This document shows positions 30,377-48,064 of a DNA stretch of 64,000 bases, in pieces. A program made the translations under genes and the position numbers. The DNA lies in the NCBI GenBank assembly GCA_003149065.1, contig QGFZ01000003.1:248001-312000 (forward strand), given 5' to 3'. Below the pieces are notes generated by a model. That model made no database searches. It had not been told where the DNA came from and saw nothing but the letters and a program-made list of their open reading frames with translations. How positions within the stretch are numbered: position 1 is the first letter of the stretch; each line of letters starts with the position of its first letter. The stretch is from Ruminococcaceae bacterium R-25. GTDB lineage: Bacteria > Bacillota > Clostridia > Saccharofermentanales > Saccharofermentanaceae.

Positions 30377-32461
30377 ATGCACCGCAAAATAGGGCAGAAG
30401 ATCCTTCTGCTTTTTATTTCATTTGTATTTGTTTTTACCGTTCTGCCGATGACGTCTTCGGCGGCTCCTTCAGGCAATGCCACATCTAATTGCTGGGGCT
30501 CAGGCGGACAGCTGGAGATCCAGCTGTCAGGGTGTTCGGGCTATAAGAACATCACCGTAGTAGCCGAGTTTTCGGGCAAGATCGATTCAGCTACAGGATG
30601 GGGCTTTGACTCATATGCGATCAAGGGAAACCAGGTCACCGCAAAGTGTTCTTCGACAGGTCAGAACAGCTGGGGATTCGATAACAAAGTCGGCATACAG
30701 GTCACGGGAAGCGATGTAAATTCAGCTAAACTGGTCTCTGTCTCAGGCGACGGCGAGTCCGGCAGCGTTAATGAGACACAGGCCACAACAGCGTCCCAGA
30801 CATCGGGCACAACTGCTGCTACAGAGCCTGCGAATAATCCCGATCCCGCGCGCAACACGAAGGGTGTTGAAGGTGACGACTGGCTTACCACAGAAGGCTC
30901 ACACATAGTTGACAAGGACGGAAAGGAAGTATGGCTTACCGGCTGCAACTGGTTCGGCTATAACACCGGAACCAATCTGTTCGACGGCGTCTGGAACTGC
31001 AATCTCAAGGACACGATCAAGGCGATCGCAGACAGGGGATTTAACGTCTTAAGAGTTCCTATGAGCGCCGAACTCCTGCTCCAATGGAAGAATGGTGAAT
31101 ACCCCAGAGCCAATTACAACAACGCTTATAACGAAGAACTGAATTCGATGAATTCCCTTGAGATCTTCGATTACGTTCTCTCACTCTGCGAGAAGAACGG
31201 CATGAAGGTTATAATCGATATCCACACTGTAAAGACCGATGCGTCAGGCCATAACCACCCCGTCTGGTACAGGGAAGACATGACCGTCGTTCACTTTGTC
31301 GATTCGCTCTCTTGGATCGCTGACAGATATAAGAATAACGACACCATTATCGGTTACGACTTAAAGAATGAGCCTCACGGAAAAGCTTCGGAGACACCTC
31401 ATGCCATTTGGAACAATTCAGACGATATGGACAACTGGAAGTGGGTCGCACAGATTGCCGGCAATGCCGTTCTGGATAAGAATCCAAATGCTCTCATCAT
31501 TATCGAAGGCATCCAGATCTATCCTAAAGACATCAAGGCGAACAACTTCGTTTCCAAAGACGACGATAACGATTACTACAATACCTGGTGGGGCGCAAAC
31601 CTCATGGGAGTCAAGGATTATCCGATAGATTTCGGCAGTCCTGAACGCAACAAACAGATCGTTTATTCGCCTCACGATTACGGTCCGAGAGTCTACGAAC
31701 AGCCCTGGTTCAAGGGCGGTTTCACATATGAATCGCTCTATAAGGATGCATGGCACGACTACTGGCTCTATATCGCGGAAGAAGACATCGCGCCCATCTT
31801 CGTAGGTGAGTGGGGCGGCTTCATGGAAGGCGATAATCTGAAGTGGATGGAATACTTCAGACAGCTTATTGCTGAGCGCCATCTCCACCATACTTTCTGG
31901 TGCTTTAATGCCAATTCCGGTGATACCGGCGGCCTTGTAAAGGACGACTTCAAGACATGGGATGAAGAGAAATATAACTTCGTAAAAGAGGTCCTCTGGA
32001 AGAATGAGAACGGCAAGTTCATAGGCCTTGATCACGCTGTGCCCCTTGGTGTAAACGGAATTGCTTTAGGTGAATACGATGGTGTTATAATTACACCCGC
32101 ACCGGTAAAGCCCAAGTCCAATACTTCGAGCGAGGATTCTATCGAAGAACCAACTGAAGAGACGGTCGGGACAACATGCGGAGGCGTAATCTATGAAGAC
32201 GATTCAAATTCGGATCTTGCCTCTTTAATGATCAGAAAAGCCTCAACTGTTCTCGTCGTAGTTGTTATAATAGCAGTAGTACTGATTGGCGGCATCGTGG
32301 CACTTACGATCTTTTTGAAGAAGAGGTCAGATGCCAGAAAAGCCGGAGAACAGGTAGTGCCTCTCGATCCTAATGAACTTGAGGCTATAACTGTAATTAC
32401 TGATAAAGCAGATGTTGCCAAGACCGGCAGCCAGCCGGACGGTGCGCAGGAGGATAATTAA
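30377..32461 (+). CDS. Membrane-anchored GH5 glycanase (cellulase-like) with N-terminal beta domain
   Basis: A 694-residue secreted enzyme. Layout: signal peptide (1-30), a small beta domain (about 35-125; SWGFDNK and IQVTGSD motifs), a Thr/Ala linker, and a GH5 barrel (about 165-560). The barrel shows FNVLRVP, IIDIHT, the acid/base in KNEPHG (Glu332) and the nucleophile in VGEWGG (Glu478). Near 620-646 a strong transmembrane helix is followed by a basic stop-transfer and an acidic cytoplasmic tail. GH5 enzymes cut beta-1,4 glucans or mannans; an endoglucanase is most likely. It would be tethered to the membrane rather than to a dockerin or cell-wall anchor. GGAGG precedes ATG 30377. Confidence 0.85.
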
Positions 32462-33419: not shown

Positions 33420-33481
33420 TTTAGTATCTTCTTTTATTTATATTAGGAGATATGTGTGCTTGTTTTTGGAGGTAAATATTG

Positions 33482-36400
33482 ATGACGGGTAGCTATTCGG
33501 GTCGCTTCTCGATCAAATCGATATGTATGCTTTTATGCGTGCTTATCGGATTTTCTTTTGCATTGCAATTTGTTGATGTTCAGGATGTTCAGGCAGCTGG
33601 TACTGCCGGAACGGTAGAAGTAAAAAACGCAAAATCCTGGGGAGATGAAGGCGGATTTAATGTTGTTATTGAAGATTTTGGCAAAGGTTATGTAACCATC
33701 ATTTTCGAGTTTAATTGTTCGGCAAATCTGTCCTGTTCAGGTCCCGTAAAAATAATATCTGATGGCGAACAGAAATGTAAGGTTCAATTTAATGGTTGGG
33801 GTGGAAAACCTAATGGAAATTATTACATTTCAGTCAATGGTACAGATCTTCCCGATCCGCTGAAGGTTAAGGTTGTCAGTAAGGATATTCATGTAACTCC
33901 TACGCCCAAGCCTACAGATCCCCCTAAGCCGACCGCTACAAACACCCCTACACCTAAGCCTACAAATACCAATACACCTAAGCCTACAAAGAAGGCTACA
34001 GCTACACCTACAAAGAAGGCTACGGCAACACCTACAAAGAAGGCTACAGCAACACCTACGAAGAAGGCTACAGCTACACCTACAAAGAAGGCTACGGCAA
34101 CACCTACGAAGAAAGCGACAGCAACACCTACGAAGAAGGCGACAGCTACACCTACGAAGAAGGCAACAGCTACACCTACGAAGAAGGCAACAGCTACACC
34201 TACAAAGAAGGCGACTGCTACACCTACGAAGAAGGCAACGGCAACACCTACGAAGAAGGCAACGGCTACACCTACAAAGAAGGCTACCAACACGCCTGTT
34301 CCGACACATACACCGGTTCCTACTAATACGAAGGCACCGACTAAGGCACCGACTAAGGCGCCTAAGCCTACTAATACAAAGGCTCCTAAGCCGACGGCAA
34401 CTACGGCACCTGTTGAGACTGAGGCACCTACGCCTACAGAGACAATTATCGACACTACAACTACAACCACTACTGTAACTACAACAGATCCGAATGAGAC
34501 TGTTGCAGGTGGTGCAGCTGCATTCATCAGCGAATCCGATCCGGATGCAACTACAACAACGACAACATCTAATGATTCAGGAAATACAGAGACAGGAGAT
34601 GGCACACCTACTCCTACTCCGACACCTACGCCTGTCATCGCTGCTCTTGCAGCAACAGGAAAGAAGAAGGGTCCTACAGGTCCTTTCTGGCTCTGGATCA
34701 TCCTTCTTGTCCTCGCTGCAGGTGCATTCATCGCGAGATATAAGTACCTTAAGGATAAGGAAGAATTGGAAGGCGTAGACCTTGCAATCGCGTTCATTCC
34801 GGGCGTTCCGTTTATTGCTGACAAGTTTGGCTATCTCGGACCGGTTAAGAAAATGACTTCGGCAAGCACGCCGGCAACATCTGCTAACTCAAGCAGAAGT
34901 TTTAATACAGCTACAGCAATGAAGGAGCTTAAGGCCATGGAAGCAGGCGAGATCAATCCTTTTAAACCGGCACCGGGTACTGAAGCAAAGCCTGCACAGC
35001 AGAAGGGTCCCATGAAGCTCCCTTCAGACCGTTCAGTAGAATCTCCTAAGGCTACAACAGACAGCAAGTATCACAGCAATTTAAGGCCTGTTGCTAAGCC
35101 TGCAGAGAAACCCGCAATGAAGAGTAACGCATTTAACAGGTCTGCTACTGCATCGGCTCAAGGACAGGCAAAGACAGCTTTGGGCGGTGCCGCAGGAACA
35201 ACAGCAACTGCAAGAACAATAAATAACAAGCCGTCATCTCCGTTTAAGCCAACAAACGCTTCCGGAATCCAGACGAATGTTAATGCCGTTGCTCAGAACA
35301 ATGCAATGAAGAATGCTATGAGAACTGATAACAGGCTTGAATCCAAGCCTTCAGCTCAGAAGCCTATCAATAGTGCATTTAAGCCTGCCGTTGCTACAGC
35401 AGCTAAGCCCGAGGCAAGCGCTCCTGCAGCAACCGGCGCATTTAAGCCTGCAGGCACAACGGCAGCTAAACCTGCTGTAACAAAGCCTGTAAACAGTGCA
35501 TTTAAGTCTGCCGGAACAACAGCAGCCAAGACTGAGGCAGCTAAGCCTATTCAGGATCATGCAGCTAAGAATGCTTTCAAGCCTGCTAACACAGCAGATA
35601 AGAAGCCAGCATTCGGCAATCTGTTTAAGCCTGCAAGCACAACAGCTGTAGCAGAAAAGACAGCGAAGCCTGAAGCTGATGTAGCACAGGGCACTGTCGG
35701 ATCACAGACAAGCATCGTAGGCGGTCTGCCGAGAGTTAACCGCAGCATGCAGAATTCAGCAATGAAGGATATTTTCAAGCCTTCAAAGGTTCCCGGAACA
35801 CTTCCTTCTGCTGATCCTTCGGCTGTATCACCTTTCAAGAGCGCAGTTACTCCTGCTGTAACTCCTGCTGCTTTGGCAGGAACAGCTGTTGTAGCTGCCG
35901 CAGTTAAGGATGAAAAGAAGACTGAGCCTATCAAGCGTCCGAAGAACGAACTTACACCCGAGCAGAAGGCTGAGCGCGAGAAGGCTGCTAAGCTCCTTGA
36001 GGAGAGAAGAGCTGCTCAGGCTGCAAGAGTTGAAGAGATAAGAAAGAATGCTGAAGCCAAGAGAGCTGAAGCTGAAAAGAAAGCTGCTGAGGAAGCAAGA
36101 CAGGCTGAAGAAGCAAGGAAGGCTGAAGAAGCAAGGCGTGCCGAAGAAGCCAGAAAGGTAGAAGAGGCAAGGAAGGCTGAAGATGCCAGAAAAGCCAAGG
36201 AAGCAGCTGAAGCCGCTGAGCGTGCAAGATTAGAAGAACAGAGAAAGGCTGAAGAGGCAATAAGACTCGCAGCCATCGCAAAGGCGGAGGCAGAGGCTAA
36301 GGCTGAAGAAGCAAGAAAGATCCAGGAAGCTTTGAAAGAAGCTGAGAAAGCAAGGATCGAGGAAGCCAAGAAGGCTCAGGAAGCAAGACGTGCCGAAGAA

Positions 36401-37588
36401 GCAAGAATTGCCGAGCAGATGAGAAAAGCTGAAGAAGCAAGAAAGGCAGATGAACTCAGAAAGGCCGAGGCGGCTAGGAAGGCTGAAGAAGTAAGACGTG
36501 CCGCAGAAGCTAAGAAAGCTGAGGAAGCAAGAATTGCCGAAGAAACAAGAAAGGCGGCTGAGGAGGCTGCAAGAGCAGCTGAGTTAGTTAAGCAGGAAGA
36601 GGCTAAAAAGGCTGCAGAAGAAGCTTTGGCAGCAGAGCGCGCAAAGAAGGCCGCTGAAGAAGCTGCTAAGGCAGCTGAAGAGGCAAAGGCTGCTGCAGAG
36701 GCTAAGCTCGCTGAAGCTCAGAAGGCCAGAGAGGCTGCTGATGCAGCAAGAGAAGCCAGAGCAGAGAGAGCTAAGGCTCAGGCAAAGACTTCCGCATTCT
36801 TCAGAAACACATTGGCTACATCCGAGAATACTGTGGCTCCGGGCATTTCCGCTTTGGCTTCTGCTGAAGGTTATGACAAGATGCTCGACAGCAAGAAGGA
36901 GAAGGTATCCGAGGCCAAGGAAAGCTCCAAGGTCAGCGAGATCAAGAGCAATCCTCTCATGTCATTTAAGAGTGGCTCTTCTTCCGGCGTAGGCGCTTCC
37001 GCATCAACAAACATTTCCGGACCTTCGATTTCAAAGGAAAAGGCAAAGTCTTCTTCCAATTCTAACCAGTTAGGAAGCATTCTTGCAGGCAACACACATA
37101 ACAATTCCGGCAGAGCACCGGTTTGGGCTTCACCTGCAATGGCAAGAGTTTCCGCTTTCAAGGAAAGTGACGAAGCAAGAGAAGCAAGAGAGCGCGAAGA
37201 ACAGAAGCGCATCGAAGAACAAGAGGCTAAGAAGGCTGCTGAAGAAAAGGCAAAGTCCGCTTATACGAGCATTGCCGATTCAGCCAAGACTCATAAGTCA
37301 GCATTCTTCAAGAGAGCTACGACAGGACGCGACGGATCAGCTGAACAGGACGGACACGTTTCTGCTTATGGCGGAATTGTAAGACCTTCTGCTATAGTTG
37401 ATGAAGAACGTGATCCTAATAAGAACAGGACCGCACCTGCAATGGGCGCAGCATTGGAAGGCCAGAGACCTTCGATCATGGATCCGAATGCTAAGGCTGC
37501 TCCTACAGCTGCAAGACCTATGGCAGGATTTAGGGGACTTGACGGAGATAAGAATCCGTCAGAAGAAGATAAGCAGGATATCAGCTGA
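33482..37588 (+). CDS. Stalked surface protein with cytoplasmic FKPA motifs and long coiled coil
   Basis: A 1368-residue single-pass protein. Order: signal peptide (1-37); beta domain (about 40-140) resembling the GH5 N-terminal domain; Thr/Pro/Lys stalk with 12 exact KKATATPT octapeptides (170-265); Thr-rich stretch; transmembrane helix (about 399-421). The cytoplasmic part begins with about 400 disordered residues bearing roughly nine xxFKPA-like motifs. An Ala/Glu/Lys/Arg coiled coil follows (about 822-1103), then a disordered tail. GGAGG supports ATG 33482; a TTG one codon earlier is possible. It looks like an outside binding domain tied to an internal scaffold. It heads an operon with the VYGPP protein and the radical SAM enzyme. 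No known family recognised. Confidence 0.75.
33989..34276 (+). repeat. 24-bp tandem repeat, 12 copies
   Basis: Twelve in-frame 24-bp units encode KKATATPT without a single amino-acid change, followed by a partial unit. Third codon positions vary (GCT/GCA/GCG, ACA/ACG), so the array is not freshly amplified. It forms the extracellular stalk. Confidence 0.95.
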
Positions 37589-37612: not shown

Positions 37613-37972
37613 ATGAAAAGATCGAAAAAGCCGTTAACATTTGCAGCGATTGCAGCAAGCATCGGTGCTTTGAGCTTAGCAGTTGAAGCGTGCGTCTACG
37701 GACCTCCGAATCCGCGTGAGACGAATGTCTACGGACCTCCGCCGGATACTTCAATAACTTCTGCTGAAACTAATGACGAGACAAAGGATACTTTGCCCGG
37801 CACTAAGCCTGATGGTGATAATAACAACGAAGTCGGCGTTTACGGACCTCCGCCGGATGAGACTCTGGACGGACCTGAAGTAGATGTATACGGACCTCCT
37901 CCGGGAGAATATGACGAACCTGACGGAAATGAAACTGTTGTTTACGGACCTCCGGAAGATTTTGATAACTGA
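37613..37972 (+). CDS. Small exported protein with five VYGPP repeats (likely radical SAM substrate)
   Basis: A 119-residue protein. A basic N terminus and hydrophobic stretch (residues 8-24) end in VEAC, a lipobox-like site with Cys27; the Glu before Ala is unusual for a lipobox. Right after the Cys comes the first of five VYGPP motifs (residues 28-32, 39-43, 76-80, 92-96, 110-114). The spacers are rich in Asp, Glu, Asn, Gly and Pro. Nothing else is conserved, so the motif is presumably the functional unit. The radical SAM gene starts 9 bases after the stop. I recall rSAM/lipoprotein pairs in Bacteroidetes with a Cys followed by a YGxP-type motif; this may be a multi-copy relative. AGGAGG precedes the ATG at 37613. 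Confidence 0.75.
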   Translation: MKRSKKPLTFAAIAASIGALSLAVEACVYGPPNPRETNVYGPPPDTSITSAETNDETKDTLPGTKPDGDNNNEVGVYGPPPDETLDGPEVDVYGPPPGEYDEPDGNETVVYGPPEDFDN

Positions 37973-37981
37973 TAATTTAAC

Positions 37982-39055
37982 GTGGATATAATTGAAGCTA
38001 AAAAGGCTTATCTTGACCAGAAAGCCGAGATGAGAGCCAGGCTGTTTAAGAAGCCTGAGCTGATCTACCTGTTTTTTGAACTTACCAGAAGCTGCAACTC
38101 GAAGTGTTTTCATTGCGGCAGTTCCTGCGAGCCCGGTTTAGGCCATGGACCCGACAAGGAAGCTTTCAAGGCGGTTTTAGATGATGTAAAGGAGCACTTT
38201 GATCTTAAGGATGTACAGCTCTGCATAACGGGCGGAGAGCCGCTCCTTTATCCTGATTTTGAAGAACTTCTGGGCTATGCGGTAGATCAGGGCTTCCATT
38301 GGGGCATGACCACAAATGCAACCCTTATTACCAAAGACGTTGCCGACATGCTCGCAAGAGTAAAGATGGGCACTGTATCTGTCAGCATCGACGGTCTCCG
38401 TGATACGCATGACAGGCAGAGAGGCATCAAAGGCGGCTACGACAGGGCGATGGAGGGAATCCAGAACCTCATTGACCGTAAGGCTTTCAAGCATATCCAG
38501 GTAACAACTGTTGTTAACCACAAGAACATAGGCGAGTTAGATGAGCTCTATGAGATCCTGGATAAGATCGATCTAGATTCATGGAGAGTAATAGGTATCG
38601 AGCCGATGGGAAGGGCATTGGATTACCCTGACATGCTCCTTACGCCTGATGACCAGAGATATATCTTTAATTTCATAAGAGAAAAGAGAGAGCAGGGAAT
38701 ACCTGTAAACTACGGATGTTCCCATTTTTTAGGTCTTGAATTTGAAAGAGAAGTAAGAGATTGGTTCTTCTACTGCGGTGCCGGAACCCATACTGCGGCA
38801 ATAAGAGTCAACGGCGATATTACAGCCTGCCTTGATATTGAGGAAAGACCTGAGTTCGTTCAGGGAAATATCTATAAGGATAAGTTCAGCGACGTATGGT
38901 TTAACCGCTTCCAGGTATTCAGACAGCCCCTGTCCAATCTTTGCGAAGACTGCAGGAAATGCGAATGGGAGAAGTGGTGTGCCGGCGGATCCAGACACTG
39001 CTTTGATTACGATAACAATAAGCAGAGGGTCTGCTTCAAGGACATTCTCTTTTAA
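37982..39055 (+). CDS. Radical SAM/SPASM enzyme, rSAM/lipoprotein-system type
   Basis: A 357-residue enzyme. Cys38, Cys42 and Cys45 (CNSKCFHC) bind the SAM [4Fe-4S] cluster, followed by TGGEPLL near 83 and the SVSIDGL strand near 130. The C-terminal 100 residues hold a Cys-rich SPASM-like domain (CGAGTH, CLDIEE, CEDCRKC, WCAGG). GFHWGMTTNA, NYGCSHFLG, EVRDWFFYCGAG and VQGNIYKDKFSDVW match my memory of the Bacteroidetes maturase family paired with small lipoproteins. SPASM enzymes usually modify peptides; the VYGPP protein upstream is the obvious target. The start is GTG 37982 without a clear ribosome binding site, so translation is probably coupled. ATG 38030 would cut conserved-looking sequence. 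Confidence 0.85.
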   Translation: MDIIEAKKAYLDQKAEMRARLFKKPELIYLFFELTRSCNSKCFHCGSSCEPGLGHGPDKEAFKAVLDDVKEHFDLKDVQLCITGGEPLLYPDFEELLGYAVDQGFHWGMTTNATLITKDVADMLARVKMGTVSVSIDGLRDTHDRQRGIKGGYDRAMEGIQNLIDRKAFKHIQVTTVVNHKNIGELDELYEILDKIDLDSWRVIGIEPMGRALDYPDMLLTPDDQRYIFNFIREKREQGIPVNYGCSHFLGLEFEREVRDWFFYCGAGTHTAAIRVNGDITACLDIEERPEFVQGNIYKDKFSDVWFNRFQVFRQPLSNLCEDCRKCEWEKWCAGGSRHCFDYDNNKQRVCFKDILF

Positions 39056-43936: not shown

Positions 43937-45166
43937 TTAGTGCTCTTTTACTTTGCTGATGATGTAATCAGCAGATCTTTCAGCGCTCTCGCCGATATGG
44001 ACCCAGATGTCGGAACGGGCTTTTTCGCGGCCTTCTGTAAACGAGGGATCCTCTATGCATTTATCAATGAGTTCCTTGATCTTATCCTTGTTTTCATCGT
44101 TAAGCTCGAGTCCCAGTGAAGGGAGGATCTTAAATGTCCAGGGTGTCTCATCGATCCAGTCGGCATCGTAAGGCGCAGGATCGAACTTCGTATCCGTGTA
44201 GATGATCGGTTTATCGAAAACCATCGCAAATTCGAACATTACGCCTGAGAAGTCCGATATCAGGATATCTGACTGCCTTAAGACTTCGAAGTTATCGATG
44301 TCCCTGTTCCAGATGACTTTGGATTCATCGTTATATTTTGACATGAGTCTGTCTAAAAGTTCTTTCTCAACGTCAAACGACTGCGGGTGAGGTCTTACTA
44401 TAAGCTTGTAGCCTGTGGTGATCAGGTTGTCGATAAGTTCATCGCCGAATCTAGAGAGAATGCCGCTCTCGCCCCAGGAAGGTGCGAGAAGGACAGTGCG
44501 TTCGTGAGCAGGAACCTCGCCTGCCTGTTCCACGCGCTTTTTCATAACATCAAGATAAGGAACACCGCAGAGGGCATAATCTCTTTTAGGGAGTCCGCGC
44601 ATTTCTTCCAGGGCCCTTATCTGTTCCACCTGGTATTCACCTGAGAGGATAAATGCATCGTAGTGGTCTGTGCCGAACATGCGGTAAAGCGTGATGTCTT
44701 TGGCGGCATGCATTATGTGGATGTAGCAGTCGACGTTTTTAGAACGCTTCCACTGGAAAACATCAAGGCTGGGAGTAGTCGAAAATAAAACTGAAGCGTT
44801 GAGCATATTGAGTTTGGAATATGCCTTATTGCCTTCTCCTATGTACTGGCCCTTGATGTATTTATAGCCTTTCTTGAAGACCGGATCATCTTCTGAACAG
44901 GTGAGATATACAGTCTCCTGCTTCTTCTTTTCGAGCTCGTCTAAAATAGGTTCGAAAATGCTCCAGTATCTCTTTGTCTCGGCAAAAATCGCGAGTGGAA
45001 TCTTGGCACCTGATAACTTGGCGCTCTTGTCGCGTCCTGTGGCAAACTTTATCTTTACCATCAGAGCGCGCAATGAAAATACAATAACGCCGAAGATACC
45101 GAAAAGTACGGTAAAGAGCATTCCTCCCGTTCCGGGATCTATATATAAGAATTCAAGTGTGTTCAC
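43937..45166 (-). CDS. CDP-glycerol:polyol glycerophosphotransferase-like protein (TagB/TagF)
   Basis: A 409-residue protein with an N-terminal membrane anchor (about 8-33). The catalytic region has IVRPHPQS near 255 and the ISDFSGVMFEFAM motif near 310, both typical of teichoic-acid polymerases and primases that use CDP-glycerol or CDP-ribitol. It would add glycerol phosphate to a lipid-linked carrier at the inner face of the membrane. The start is GTG 45166 with a TTGAGG site. Its promoter is nearly the same as that of the next gene upstream. Confidence 0.8.
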   Translation of the reverse strand: MNTLEFLYIDPGTGGMLFTVLFGIFGVIVFSLRALMVKIKFATGRDKSAKLSGAKIPLAIFAETKRYWSIFEPILDELEKKKQETVYLTCSEDDPVFKKGYKYIKGQYIGEGNKAYSKLNMLNASVLFSTTPSLDVFQWKRSKNVDCYIHIMHAAKDITLYRMFGTDHYDAFILSGEYQVEQIRALEEMRGLPKRDYALCGVPYLDVMKKRVEQAGEVPAHERTVLLAPSWGESGILSRFGDELIDNLITTGYKLIVRPHPQSFDVEKELLDRLMSKYNDESKVIWNRDIDNFEVLRQSDILISDFSGVMFEFAMVFDKPIIYTDTKFDPAPYDADWIDETPWTFKILPSLGLELNDENKDKIKELIDKCIEDPSFTEGREKARSDIWVHIGESAERSADYIISKVKEH

Positions 45167-45304: not shown

Positions 45305-48064
45305 TCATTTTTCGCCTACATATCTCCAGTTGTTGGAACTGTGCGGATCTTTCTCGACAACATACCACGAAGCCATCGAGAAGGTCTTGTTGTCCCTGTT
45401 TTTGGACAGTACGTAGTTAGCTGACAGGAAGACTTTTTCTGTTCCGGTCTTCATGTTGGAGTCGATCGGATTTCCCGTGTAAGGATTTACCGGCCCTTTA
45501 ATGACGCCTGAAGATGCCAGGACGGGAGTATCCGCATTGGTCATGAAATCCTCACAGATGGTAAATCCTGTTGCACCGAAGTCTTTTACCATCATAAGGG
45601 GAATGAATCCTTCCATTTCCTTGCCGTTGCTCTTGATCTCGTAGAAACCAGCAGGAGTTCCGTGGTCAGATACTAATATTATCCTTGTGTTGTCGTAGAC
45701 ACCCTGTTCACGCAGATAATCAAACCACTCGCCGAGCTTCAGGAACGCTGCCATGTTGACGTGGTAATGCATTACCTGATCGCTCGAAAACATGTTGATG
45801 CTCCTGCCTTTATATCTGTATCCGGAACCGAGCTTGGTATCGTAAGCCGTGTTGTCGACGTTATATGCCAGCTTGTAATCCGGCTTCTGCAAAAGGCAGG
45901 GGGAATGCGTCGTATCGTTAGCCATCAGGACGAAAGAAGGCTTATCATCGTCCTTTATGACAGTTATTTTCGTGAGGTTATCCAATACCGCATAAGACTT
46001 CAGGAATTCGAGGTCGTAACCGACACTTTTAGAAAGACCGTATACGTGCTGGACGAGCGCATCGGTCTCAACAGTGCCGTCGACTCTTACTGCGGTCGCT
46101 CTTGATTCATTGTAGACACCGCCGTCATAGATAGTCTCCTGCAAAAGGACCGGCGAAGTCTTCATGAGTGAGAACAGGAAGAAGTTGCGGTTTCTGGATT
46201 TGTTGACCCTTTCCGTCGCATCGGCCGAGATATTGACGCCGCCGTCTGTGATATTGAATCTGCCGCTGGTCAGGAAGACGTTGAATTCAGGATGGTCGTT
46301 ATAGATCGAAATATCAGGATTCCACAAATATCCTGCCAAAGGCGGATCAACGATCGTTACATCATAACCGTTGCTGCCAAAGAGTACCGGCATGACCTTT
46401 AAGGCTTCAGTGTGCTTATCTACGAGGAGTTCATCGGATCTCTCGTTGATTCTCTCGGGAGTATATTCATAACCGCCGAAGAGAGCAGGGGAAGCGAAGA
46501 TCGTGTGCGTTCCATATGAGATCGTATTCGGATAATAGGTAAAACCGTCAAACTGGGGCTTGAGAGACTGCTTCTCGTTCATGAGATAAGGAACGAGATC
46601 TCCTACAGAACGGTCGAGCATCAGGATCACGACATTTTGTCCCGTCCTGCTTAAGGGGATAAGAGGCATATCGGAAGACTGCGCGCGGCTCTCATAATCG
46701 GAATATGTTTTCGCGATCTTTGCCGTGGTATAAGAACCGATGCCAATGACTGTGAGGATTAAGACGATAAGGATAGGAAGGACTATCTTGCGGAATTTGG
46801 TGCAGATGAAATACAGAGCAGCTGCGATAACTATTACGGCTGCAGTGTTGATCAGATATTCATTGAATTTAAATGCCGGCTGGCTGTGATACTGCAAAGT
46901 CGCTGATAGCGTTCCGAGTTTTGTTCCGAACAAAAGATAATTTGCGATCGCGATACCGTTTAACGCAAAGACTGCTTTGGATAATATGGACTTGACCTTA
47001 TCGCTCAAAAAGAAGTAGAAGATGCTGCCCCAGAGAACGAAGCTTCCAAAGGATAACAGCATCGAATTAACGACATAGAGCACAGGGCTTGAAGGATTGA
47101 TGACGTCAATGAATTCTTCCGTGGAAGCATTGATTATCGTAGCAGGGATAACTAGACCTGTAAGAAGTGCCATAAAGACCGCGCCGGCATAAAATGCTTT
47201 GTCGTTTCTAGAGGGGACCTTTTCTTCTGCTTTTTTCCTGAAAAAAGAGAATGCGAGCGGCAGTATAAGCAAAAGCGCTCCTATCCATAAAAGGACTTTC
47301 TGCCTTAGATCGAGCCCCTGTTTTAAGAAGGTCATTACTGTTATTCCGGCACCTGCAAGAGCAGACAGAATGCATAAGACTTTCTTGGGGTTCTTAAGCT
47401 TATAGAAGATATTCTTTACGAGTGAGAATACGTTATTTAACAGCCAGTAGAAAACGAGTCCTGAAGGTGAGTGGTAGAGCAGGATAAGGAATACGACCGC
47501 AATGCCGTAACCCTGGATCTTTGATTTCAGAGGGTGTCCTTTTGTATAGATGATTCCCGATACGATGTTTATGAGCGTCATGAGGATCGGGAGGATATTT
47601 ACGGGGAAGCTTCCGATCATGAAAAGGGCATCTTCTTTTCCAAGATCTGCTATAAAGCCGAACTTCATTCCCTGAAGGCAGCTCATTCTGGATAAGAGTC
47701 TGTATGCAGCAATGAAGAACGGGATCTGCAATATAAGCGATATGGAGCTTTTGAGCTGGTATACAGGCTTATAGTGGTTGATCCTGTAGTATTCCTGGAG
47801 CATAAAGAAACGCTCATCGCCTTTGAAGGTCTTCTTGATGCGCTTGATCCTCGGTGCCATCTTTGCCTGGATATCGCGCTCTTCTGCCTGAAGCTCGTCA
47901 GCTCTCTTATAAAGAGGGAGGACCAGGAAATTAAACGCGAGGCTTAAGAATATTATCGATAATCCGGGATTGCCTATAATGCGGTTGGCTATCGTAAATA
48001 CGACTTCGAAAAGAAGCTCAAGCGGAGAGATTATTAACGTGTAAAGTACAGTTAAGACTGACAT
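45305..48064 (-). CDS. YidC/Oxa1 domain fused to a sulfatase-type transferase
   Basis: A 919-residue fusion. Residues 1-225 are a YidC/Oxa1-like insertase (membrane spans, a charged MAPRIKRIKK hairpin, then ISLILQIPFFIAAYRLLS). Further spans follow to about 475. The outer domain (about 480-919) is of the alkaline phosphatase/sulfatase superfamily: LMLDRS as a metal site, GTHTIFASPALFGG with the likely Thr nucleophile, and LVSDHG near 770. This domain resembles LTA synthase-type phosphoglycerol transferases. Its neighbour uses CDP-glycerol-like donors, so envelope polymer synthesis is the likely role. No strong Shine-Dalgarno sequence precedes ATG 48064. Confidence 0.78.
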   Translation of the reverse strand: MSVLTVLYTLIISPLELLFEVVFTIANRIIGNPGLSIIFLSLAFNFLVLPLYKRADELQAEERDIQAKMAPRIKRIKKTFKGDERFFMLQEYYRINHYKPVYQLKSSISLILQIPFFIAAYRLLSRMSCLQGMKFGFIADLGKEDALFMIGSFPVNILPILMTLINIVSGIIYTKGHPLKSKIQGYGIAVVFLILLYHSPSGLVFYWLLNNVFSLVKNIFYKLKNPKKVLCILSALAGAGITVMTFLKQGLDLRQKVLLWIGALLLILPLAFSFFRKKAEEKVPSRNDKAFYAGAVFMALLTGLVIPATIINASTEEFIDVINPSSPVLYVVNSMLLSFGSFVLWGSIFYFFLSDKVKSILSKAVFALNGIAIANYLLFGTKLGTLSATLQYHSQPAFKFNEYLINTAAVIVIAAALYFICTKFRKIVLPILIVLILTVIGIGSYTTAKIAKTYSDYESRAQSSDMPLIPLSRTGQNVVILMLDRSVGDLVPYLMNEKQSLKPQFDGFTYYPNTISYGTHTIFASPALFGGYEYTPERINERSDELLVDKHTEALKVMPVLFGSNGYDVTIVDPPLAGYLWNPDISIYNDHPEFNVFLTSGRFNITDGGVNISADATERVNKSRNRNFFLFSLMKTSPVLLQETIYDGGVYNESRATAVRVDGTVETDALVQHVYGLSKSVGYDLEFLKSYAVLDNLTKITVIKDDDKPSFVLMANDTTHSPCLLQKPDYKLAYNVDNTAYDTKLGSGYRYKGRSINMFSSDQVMHYHVNMAAFLKLGEWFDYLREQGVYDNTRIILVSDHGTPAGFYEIKSNGKEMEGFIPLMMVKDFGATGFTICEDFMTNADTPVLASSGVIKGPVNPYTGNPIDSNMKTGTEKVFLSANYVLSKNRDNKTFSMASWYVVEKDPHSSNNWRYVGEK

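Follow-up and report, generated by a model that had tools for sequence, protein, structure and literature searches.

A radical SAM/SPASM enzyme and its VYGPP repeat neighbour in a Saccharofermentanaceae genome: conserved pairing and a candidate kinship with spliceases

The gene pair at the locus

Two adjacent genes of Ruminococcaceae bacterium R-25, one for a small repeat protein (P0002) and one for a radical SAM/SPASM enzyme (P0001), lie in the window analysed here, a stretch of 64,000 nucleotides (C3:248001-312000) of a 3.07 Mb genome (Table 1). The stop codon of the first gene ends at 37972 and the GTG start of the second is at 37982, and with a gap of only 9 bases the synthesis of both proteins would be coupled. 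The first-pass annotation had placed a SPASM-type radical SAM gene 9 bases 3' of a small protein with five VYGPP motifs, and the coordinates of the reading frames, the Pfam matches and the motif count bear this out.

Table 1. Features of the P0002/P0001 locus, in window coordinates
Feature	Position	Strand	Description
P0002 repeat-protein gene	37613..37972 (stop included; coding 37613-37969)	+	119 aa, signal-like stretch, single Cys27, acidic tail, five VYGPP
VYGPP site 1	37694..37708	+	residues 28-32, immediately C-terminal to Cys27
VYGPP site 2	37727..37741	+	residues 39-43
VYGPP site 3	37838..37852	+	residues 76-80
VYGPP site 4	37886..37900	+	residues 92-96
VYGPP site 5	37940..37954	+	residues 110-114
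P0001 radical SAM/SPASM gene	37982..39055	+	357 aa, GTG start, TIGR04133-like
P0001 radical SAM cluster motif	38093..38122	+	C38-x3-C42-x-H44-C45-G46-S47; HCGS common to splicease-type clade
P0001 SPASM region	38774..39034	+	C265 to C351; Ser337 at a Cys position of the splicease-type clade; invariant His339

None of the five VYGPP motifs of P0002 is terminal, the last residues being EDFDN; the mature protein has a pI of about 4.1. Searches against Pfam and NCBIfam found no family for it at E <= 0.1. The repetition of the motif stands out from the background: the degenerate coding pattern GTNTAYGGNCCNCC has five exact matches in the genome, every one inside the P0002 gene, while the backward control pattern has four matches in the genome, and when mature P0002 was shuffled 100,000 times, only 248 shuffles contained one or more VYGPP and none exceeded two. 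Furthermore, more than 200 VYGPP instances encoded 5' of 68 related enzymes use all four codons for Val, Gly and Pro, so that conservation is at the level of the protein motif. P0002 is predicted to be exported on the basis of its signal-like N-terminus, which ends in AVEA-C. In this presumed lipobox, Glu at -2 departs from the usual lipobox rule; the same Glu is found in 27 of the 66 partners scored, and other orthologues have VSGC, ITGC, LTGC, LTAC and similar sequences at this position. We hold lipid anchoring via Cys27 to be probable.

The enzyme P0001 matches the Pfam families Radical_SAM (78.5 bits) and SPASM (35.0 bits), both above cut-off, and carries the expected C38, C42 and C45 together with six cysteines in the SPASM region. 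Its best NCBIfam model is TIGR04133 (rSAM_w_lipo) at 271.4 bits, short of the cut-off of 425, which is also missed by the related enzymes of loci L097, L098 and L102 and passed by those of L112 and L136. As judged from these scores, P0001 is a divergent relative of TIGR04133. A resemblance to the rSAM/lipoprotein systems of Bacteroidetes had been claimed on first inspection; the kind of system was rightly recognised, TIGR04133 being the best model, but the 271 bits lie below 425 and P0002 gave no match at E <= 0.1 to the companion lipoprotein model TIGR04134 (cut-off 39.8 bits). The MftC model comes second (138 bits). TIGR04103, which we take to be the PlpX splicease family, is only the tenth-best model (106.2 bits against a cut-off of 725), and P0001 scores the MftC and heme-type models higher. 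In relatives, TIGR04103 ranks second (L097, L112), third (L102), fifth (L098) or sixth (L136), and rank by model score was dropped as proof of kinship with spliceases.

The predicted structure of P0001 (pLDDT 92.5, pTM 0.90) matches best the peptide-modifying SPASM enzyme SuiB (Z 27.6 over 316 residues at 3.2 A, from model residue 19), with the epimerase EpeE further down the list; by sequence, the closest PDB entry is CteB (5wgg). N-terminal to the barrel the model has a single helix (residues 3-23) and lacks a recognition domain. At the P0001/P0002 locus the analysis found no recognition partner, and a PqqD-family search of the genome gave five places, none of them on the window's contig.

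Pairing of the enzyme with YG proteins

At E <= 1e-50, the enzyme is present in 62 of 188 genomes of the order, in three of the 30 genera surveyed, and in 16 of 391 genomes sampled from the class. At E <= 1e-30 it was found in 17 of 398 genomes sampled from the phylum, where the enzymes other than those of the window's genome and G409 stand at 29-36% identity. The close set comprises 68 loci from 67 genomes (G075 contributes two; L068 and L091 are one locus of G409, for which L091 was used), and 66 of them have a YG.P protein no more than 1 kb from the enzyme. One of the two misses, L048, is a contig-edge fragment in which YGPP is still visible; at the other, L067, which was kept in the counts, the enzyme match spans residues 5-290 only and the frame lacks the C-terminal SPASM pattern. 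The partner ends 3-30 bases 5' of the enzyme match in 54 of the 68 partners found. Each close partner has 0 to 6 YGxP sites, and 60 of the 68 have 2-5. The residue before Tyr is Val at 211 of 224 sites (69 rows, the G409 locus counted twice), in a count that took only YGP or YG.P matches and thereby fixed Tyr, Gly and partly Pro by construction.

Motif and enzyme also go together across the genus. Of the 53 genomes that have the enzyme, 42 hold a CVYGP(P/A) coding pattern, against one of the 32 without it (Fisher p 7.6e-13, uncorrected for kinship). The exception without the enzyme (G061) and G085, for which it is the sole match, carry zinc-ribbon-like proteins, and excluding both leaves 41/53 against 0/32. 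Eleven CVYGP stretches unlinked to the enzyme gene were read: six zinc-ribbon-like proteins (Pfam check for L205 only), two second YGPP lipoproteins, two frames of 405 residues that presumably resemble a Sua5-type protein, and one contig-end fragment (L215). The zinc-ribbon-like protein (L205 1363-1644, also L207-L211) is small, occurs in several genomes of the genus and has CVYGPP followed by TTHTC-type text; in the case of L205 it belongs to a genome in which no enzyme was found at E <= 1e-50. The two unlinked lipoproteins (L212 in G112, L213 in G137) come from enzyme-bearing genomes and are possible substrates in trans, so the enzyme may also act on proteins encoded elsewhere.

Other neighbours do not persist in this way. 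Among 29 close loci, 26 have an SDR gene beside the pair and 25 the C-terminus of a large Ala/Lys-rich gene (33479-37588 in the window); neither was found at any of 38 loci beyond the close relatives, of which 36 and 34, respectively, reach 1.5 kb on the needed side. Reading a function from neighbouring genes was therefore dropped.

Related enzymes also occur far outside the order. A GTDB scan gave at least 588 related stretches, of which the best 80 form the distant set; they come from Bacteroidota, Fibrobacter, Myxococcota, Ktedonobacter, Spirochaetales, Elusimicrobia, Phycisphaerae, Hydrogenedentota and others. Of these best 80 of at least 588, 63 have a YG.P protein within 1 kb of the enzyme. 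It had been noted at the outset that the proposed link of enzyme and motif would fall if homologues of the enzyme never sat beside YGPP-type proteins; with 66/68 close and 63/80 distant loci, they commonly do. The pairing of the enzyme with a YG.P protein is real.

Control motifs locate the conserved element. Eight altered motifs (P.GY, GY.P, FG.P, WG.P, HG.P, YS.P, YD.P and YN.P) occur at 0-6 of the 68 close loci and 0-5 of the best 80 of at least 588 distant ones. For the same two sets, a small reading frame within 1 kb contains YG at 67/68 and 76/80 loci, against 49/68 and 35/80 for GY. Controls that keep YG are commoner (YG..P 51/68 close and 28/80 distant, again the best 80 of at least 588; YG.A 15 and 6; YG.L 14 and 7), at least in part because of YGPPP-like runs and the YG core itself. 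A signal-like stretch with a Cys before Y[GA].P is found at 63/68 close loci and 54/80 distant loci (best 80 of at least 588), compared with 0-5 for reversed or swapped motifs. Among the best 80 of at least 588, 17 distant loci have no YG.P within 1 kb, several of them with ACYG, and the 16 without Y[GA].P include several with ACYG, APAYG or KYG peptides; L105, L107, L145, L153, L156 and L160 have no convincing YG partner within 1 kb.

The proteins that carry the site are otherwise different. All five distant partners tested pass the TIGR04134 cut-off (39.8 bits) and P0002 does not; thus the scaffolds vary and the YG site persists. Some distant partners are TIGR04134 lipoproteins with a carboxypeptidase-regulatory-like domain (Pfam scores below cut-off). 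Myxococcota have repeat proteins instead, Fibrobacter Ser-rich ones, Ktedonobacter a repeat that carries a hydrophobic segment at its C-terminus, and Clostridia small membrane proteins. In some distant partners Tyr immediately follows Cys (ACYGTP). L097, from a Clostridia genome, bridges the window-type and distant partners, with CGMYGPP on a protein that passes TIGR04134. The residue before Tyr at 83 distant sites (best 80 of at least 588 loci) is E in 26, L in 21, K in 11, M in 11, C in 6, V in 4 and others in 4, so this type of enzyme appears to accept many residues at X; the near-fixed Val of the window's family may reflect the function of the product or a narrowed enzyme. The earlier proposal that the Tyr of each motif or its neighbours is modified gains from these comparisons: Tyr-Gly, the element common to otherwise different partners, is a well-supported candidate site of modification.

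NCBI already models an enzyme-lipoprotein pairing as TIGR04133/TIGR04134, labelled 'hypothetical' and without a function. The window pair is, from its sequence, a divergent form of it with a multi-site partner. It shares with the pairs of Bacteroidota, Treponema and others the enzyme clade and a signal-peptide partner with YG.P soon after Cys; whereas the TIGR04134 partner has a single site before a carboxypeptidase-regulatory-like domain, P0002 is a multi-site acidic repeat.

Placement of the enzyme beside spliceases

A first, midpoint-rooted tree of 82 rows, with 31 of the 80 distant loci (best 80 of at least 588) and 27 of 70 other Bacillota loci, united window-type and distant enzymes in a single clade of 62 rows (SH-aLRT 100) and left the branching order of three groups undecided. 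A rooted tree was built from 14 of the 62 clade rows, eight of nine splicease-type rows and nine other SPASM rows (ACGX, a long branch, and L199 were left out), with two other radical SAM enzymes from the same genome as the root. Here the clade of P0001 is sister to the splicease-type clade with support of 98/96, and P0001 falls in one clade with enzymes above the TIGR04133 cut-off (99/99, 14 rows). The splicease-type clade contains the Nostoc TIGR04103 enzyme, GDL-motif enzymes and relatives; the MftC, heme-type and TIGR04053 rows lie outside the joint clade. An AU test nearly rejects two other groupings, with borderline p values of 0.057 and 0.051. L003, another of the genome's radical SAM enzymes and the third intended as an outgroup, had a very long branch (4.54) and landed next to the MftC and heme-type rows.

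Single residues agree with this placement. G46, S47, W201 and E255 are common to the two clades and seldom seen elsewhere (0, 30%, 10% and 0 of the other SPASM rows, respectively), E255 being present in 78% of splicease-type rows; the structure alignment took in 30 of the 80 distant enzymes (best 80 of at least 588). HCGS is found in 62/62 clade rows, 9/9 splicease-type rows and 0/11 others; the distant rows had been fetched partly by the HCGS pattern itself, and the 27 other Bacillota rows without it.

The adjoining peptides offer a second comparison. XYG peptides lie beside five of the nine splicease-type enzymes used. The Nif11 precursor beside the Nostoc TIGR04103 gene ends in GRGSIALYGLPPELF, i.e. 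...LYGLPPELF; the peptide adjoining a spirochaete relative ends in MYGVPVPKE, and the partner of a GDL-type enzyme has MLYGG. No XYG peptide was found beside the other four rows (L069, L178, L196 and L194, the last with LYAAG in its partner). An X-Tyr-Gly site, often with Pro two residues on, thus occurs beside enzymes of both sister clades. Two small frames beside Bacillota splicease-type enzymes are candidate spliceotide precursors in their own right: L070 1157-1504, with TTAYGIARPG near the C-terminus after an NHLP-like leader, and L195 2213-2419, with VMYGTGVRM near the C-terminus.

One feature of the SPASM region fits poorly. A cysteine of the SPASM CX3C motif is replaced by Ser, Gly or Ala in 151 of 152 clade loci, with a His two residues on, and is kept in 9/9 splicease-type rows. 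In anSME the matching Cys binds auxiliary cluster I. With this cysteine missing, the chemistry of the clade may differ from that of spliceases.

Proposed reaction and its alternatives

Spliceases have been described in some detail. PlpX (InterPro number IPR026482 in PMC11002830) excises tyramine at X-Tyr-Gly (PMC10533398, PMC11002830), acting with the RRE protein PlpY (PMC11002830), and several sites per precursor can be spliced (PMC10373908). Splicing needs no leader, and a tag of ten residues can suffice; in FtsZ trials with PIRPGYGLPI or similar tags, two of 16 placements were accepted (PMC10533398), so that having a YGLP-type site is not always enough. The P0001 system shares with PlpX/PlpY the HCGS motif, W201 and E255, the X-Tyr-Gly-x-Pro sites and the multi-site precursor. 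It differs in the lack of a leader of the Nif11 or nitrile-hydratase type and of any RRE partner that the PqqD-family search could find on the contig, in the loss of the SPASM CX3C cysteine with an invariant His instead, and in an exported, lipoprotein-like partner.

P0001 and P0002 would thus form an enzyme-substrate pair, and very probably the VYGPP motif is what P0001 modifies. Given a sister clade of the splicease type and an X-Tyr-Gly motif, tyramine excision is proposed as the chemistry, with a probability of about 0.55. P0001 would act in the cytoplasm, before export, on the unfolded acidic chain; it would recognise each local X-Tyr-Gly-x-Pro, cut out the tyramine part of Tyr (C8H9NO, ~135.07 Da) and rejoin the backbone. 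The Val preceding each Tyr would become an alpha-keto-beta-amino (ketoamide) residue, up to five of them in P0002. The spliced protein would then be exported and displayed, most likely lipid-anchored by Cys27, with electrophilic ketoamides on an acidic, flexible chain. As for its role, we can only guess at a reversible covalent, perhaps multi-headed, protease trap, as protease inhibition is reported for spliceotides (PMC10373908, PMC11117315), or at a handle for covalent attachment or amine coupling. A wider proposition is more tentative, and we rate it slightly below even odds: that TIGR04133-like enzymes are phylum-spanning, stand-alone spliceases with an altered auxiliary-cluster site, where an invariant His lies close to the missing Cys ligand, and that they put alpha-keto-beta-amino residues into exported lipoproteins of diverse folds and, in this genus, up to six electrophilic Val-ketoamides on a surface protein.

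The chief alternative is that P0001 modifies each VYGPP by another radical reaction, such as a C-C or ether crosslink from Tyr to a neighbour, desaturation or epimerisation, and that the altered SPASM site marks this difference. The pairing and the YG site are compatible with any Tyr-Gly chemistry, the SPASM site is unlike that of the splicease-type clade in all but one of the 152 loci, and among the closest folds of known structure are SuiB, an enzyme that forms a Lys-Trp bond, and, lower in the list, the epimerase EpeE. The sister clade, however, is of the splicease type and has like-looking XYG sites, and inspection by eye revealed no second residue, Pro excepted, that is conserved at a fixed distance across scaffolds and might take part in a crosslink. 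We regard another radical reaction as possible, if doubtful.

That P0001 acts on something else, with P0002 a mere neighbour or a platform for enzyme binding, seems improbable. VYGPP does occur in the zinc-ribbon protein, once where no enzyme was found (L205), but the pairing is kept across phyla while the SDR and large upstream genes were found at none of the 38 loci beyond close relatives, and the protein motif is kept while its codons vary.

Two further reactions are very unlikely. A mycofactocin-like oxidation, in which Tyr would be decarboxylated and linked to Val by an MftC-type enzyme, would account for the rank of the MftC model, and MftC, also a SPASM enzyme, acts on Val-Tyr, with which MftA ends. 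The Tyr residue that is decarboxylated in the MftC reaction (PMC8326336) is C-terminal in both MftA sequences seen, whereas all five in P0002 are internal, and this reaction was rejected. In addition, MftC falls outside the joint clade, and the distant pre-Tyr residue (best 80 of at least 588 loci) is mostly Glu, Leu, Lys or Met. The mycofactocin locus also has an MftB chaperone gene beside MftC. Thioether formation of the sactipeptide or ranthipeptide type, suggested by the SPASM architecture and by CteB as the best PDB sequence match, was rejected as well: such peptides have a Cys at or near every site, while P0002 has one Cys for five motifs, and that one is the presumed lipidation site.

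Among the papers searched none names TIGR04133 or TIGR04134, and among the matches listed none deals with such an enzyme-YGPP system; for VYGPP-type motifs, the titles among the matches listed were unrelated. Scott et al. 2022 (Chem 8:2659) may already cover the TIGR04133-like clade. New here are the connection with spliceases, the finding that the YG site is what the different scaffolds have in common, and the changed SPASM site. The X-Tyr-Gly splicing link gives the uncharacterised TIGR04133/TIGR04134 pair, spread over many phyla, one mass to look for. If tyramine excision is the reaction, bacterial surfaces would carry backbone-edited beta-amino residues, which might act as protease inhibitors, and a splicease free of partners would offer an easier way to put ketoamide handles into proteins.

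Several other genes of the window also deserve mention. Upstream on the forward strand, 30377-32461 encodes a GH5 cellulase (PF00150, 167 bits) that has a signal-like N-terminus and, close to the C-terminus, a hydrophobic segment, and 33479-37588 a protein of 1369 aa that combines an extended series of KKATATPT-type repeats with a region rich in Ala, Lys and Glu, for which no Pfam match above cut-off was found. Downstream, on the reverse strand, 45305-48064 encodes an unusual fusion of 919 aa in which a YidC/Oxa1-type insertase domain (PF02096, 80 bits) is combined with one of sulfatase/LTA-synthase-like type (PF00884, 29 bits). It is adjoined by a CDP-glycerol glycerophosphotransferase-like gene (PF04464) at 43937-45166, and the fusion may serve the synthesis of a cell-surface polymer.
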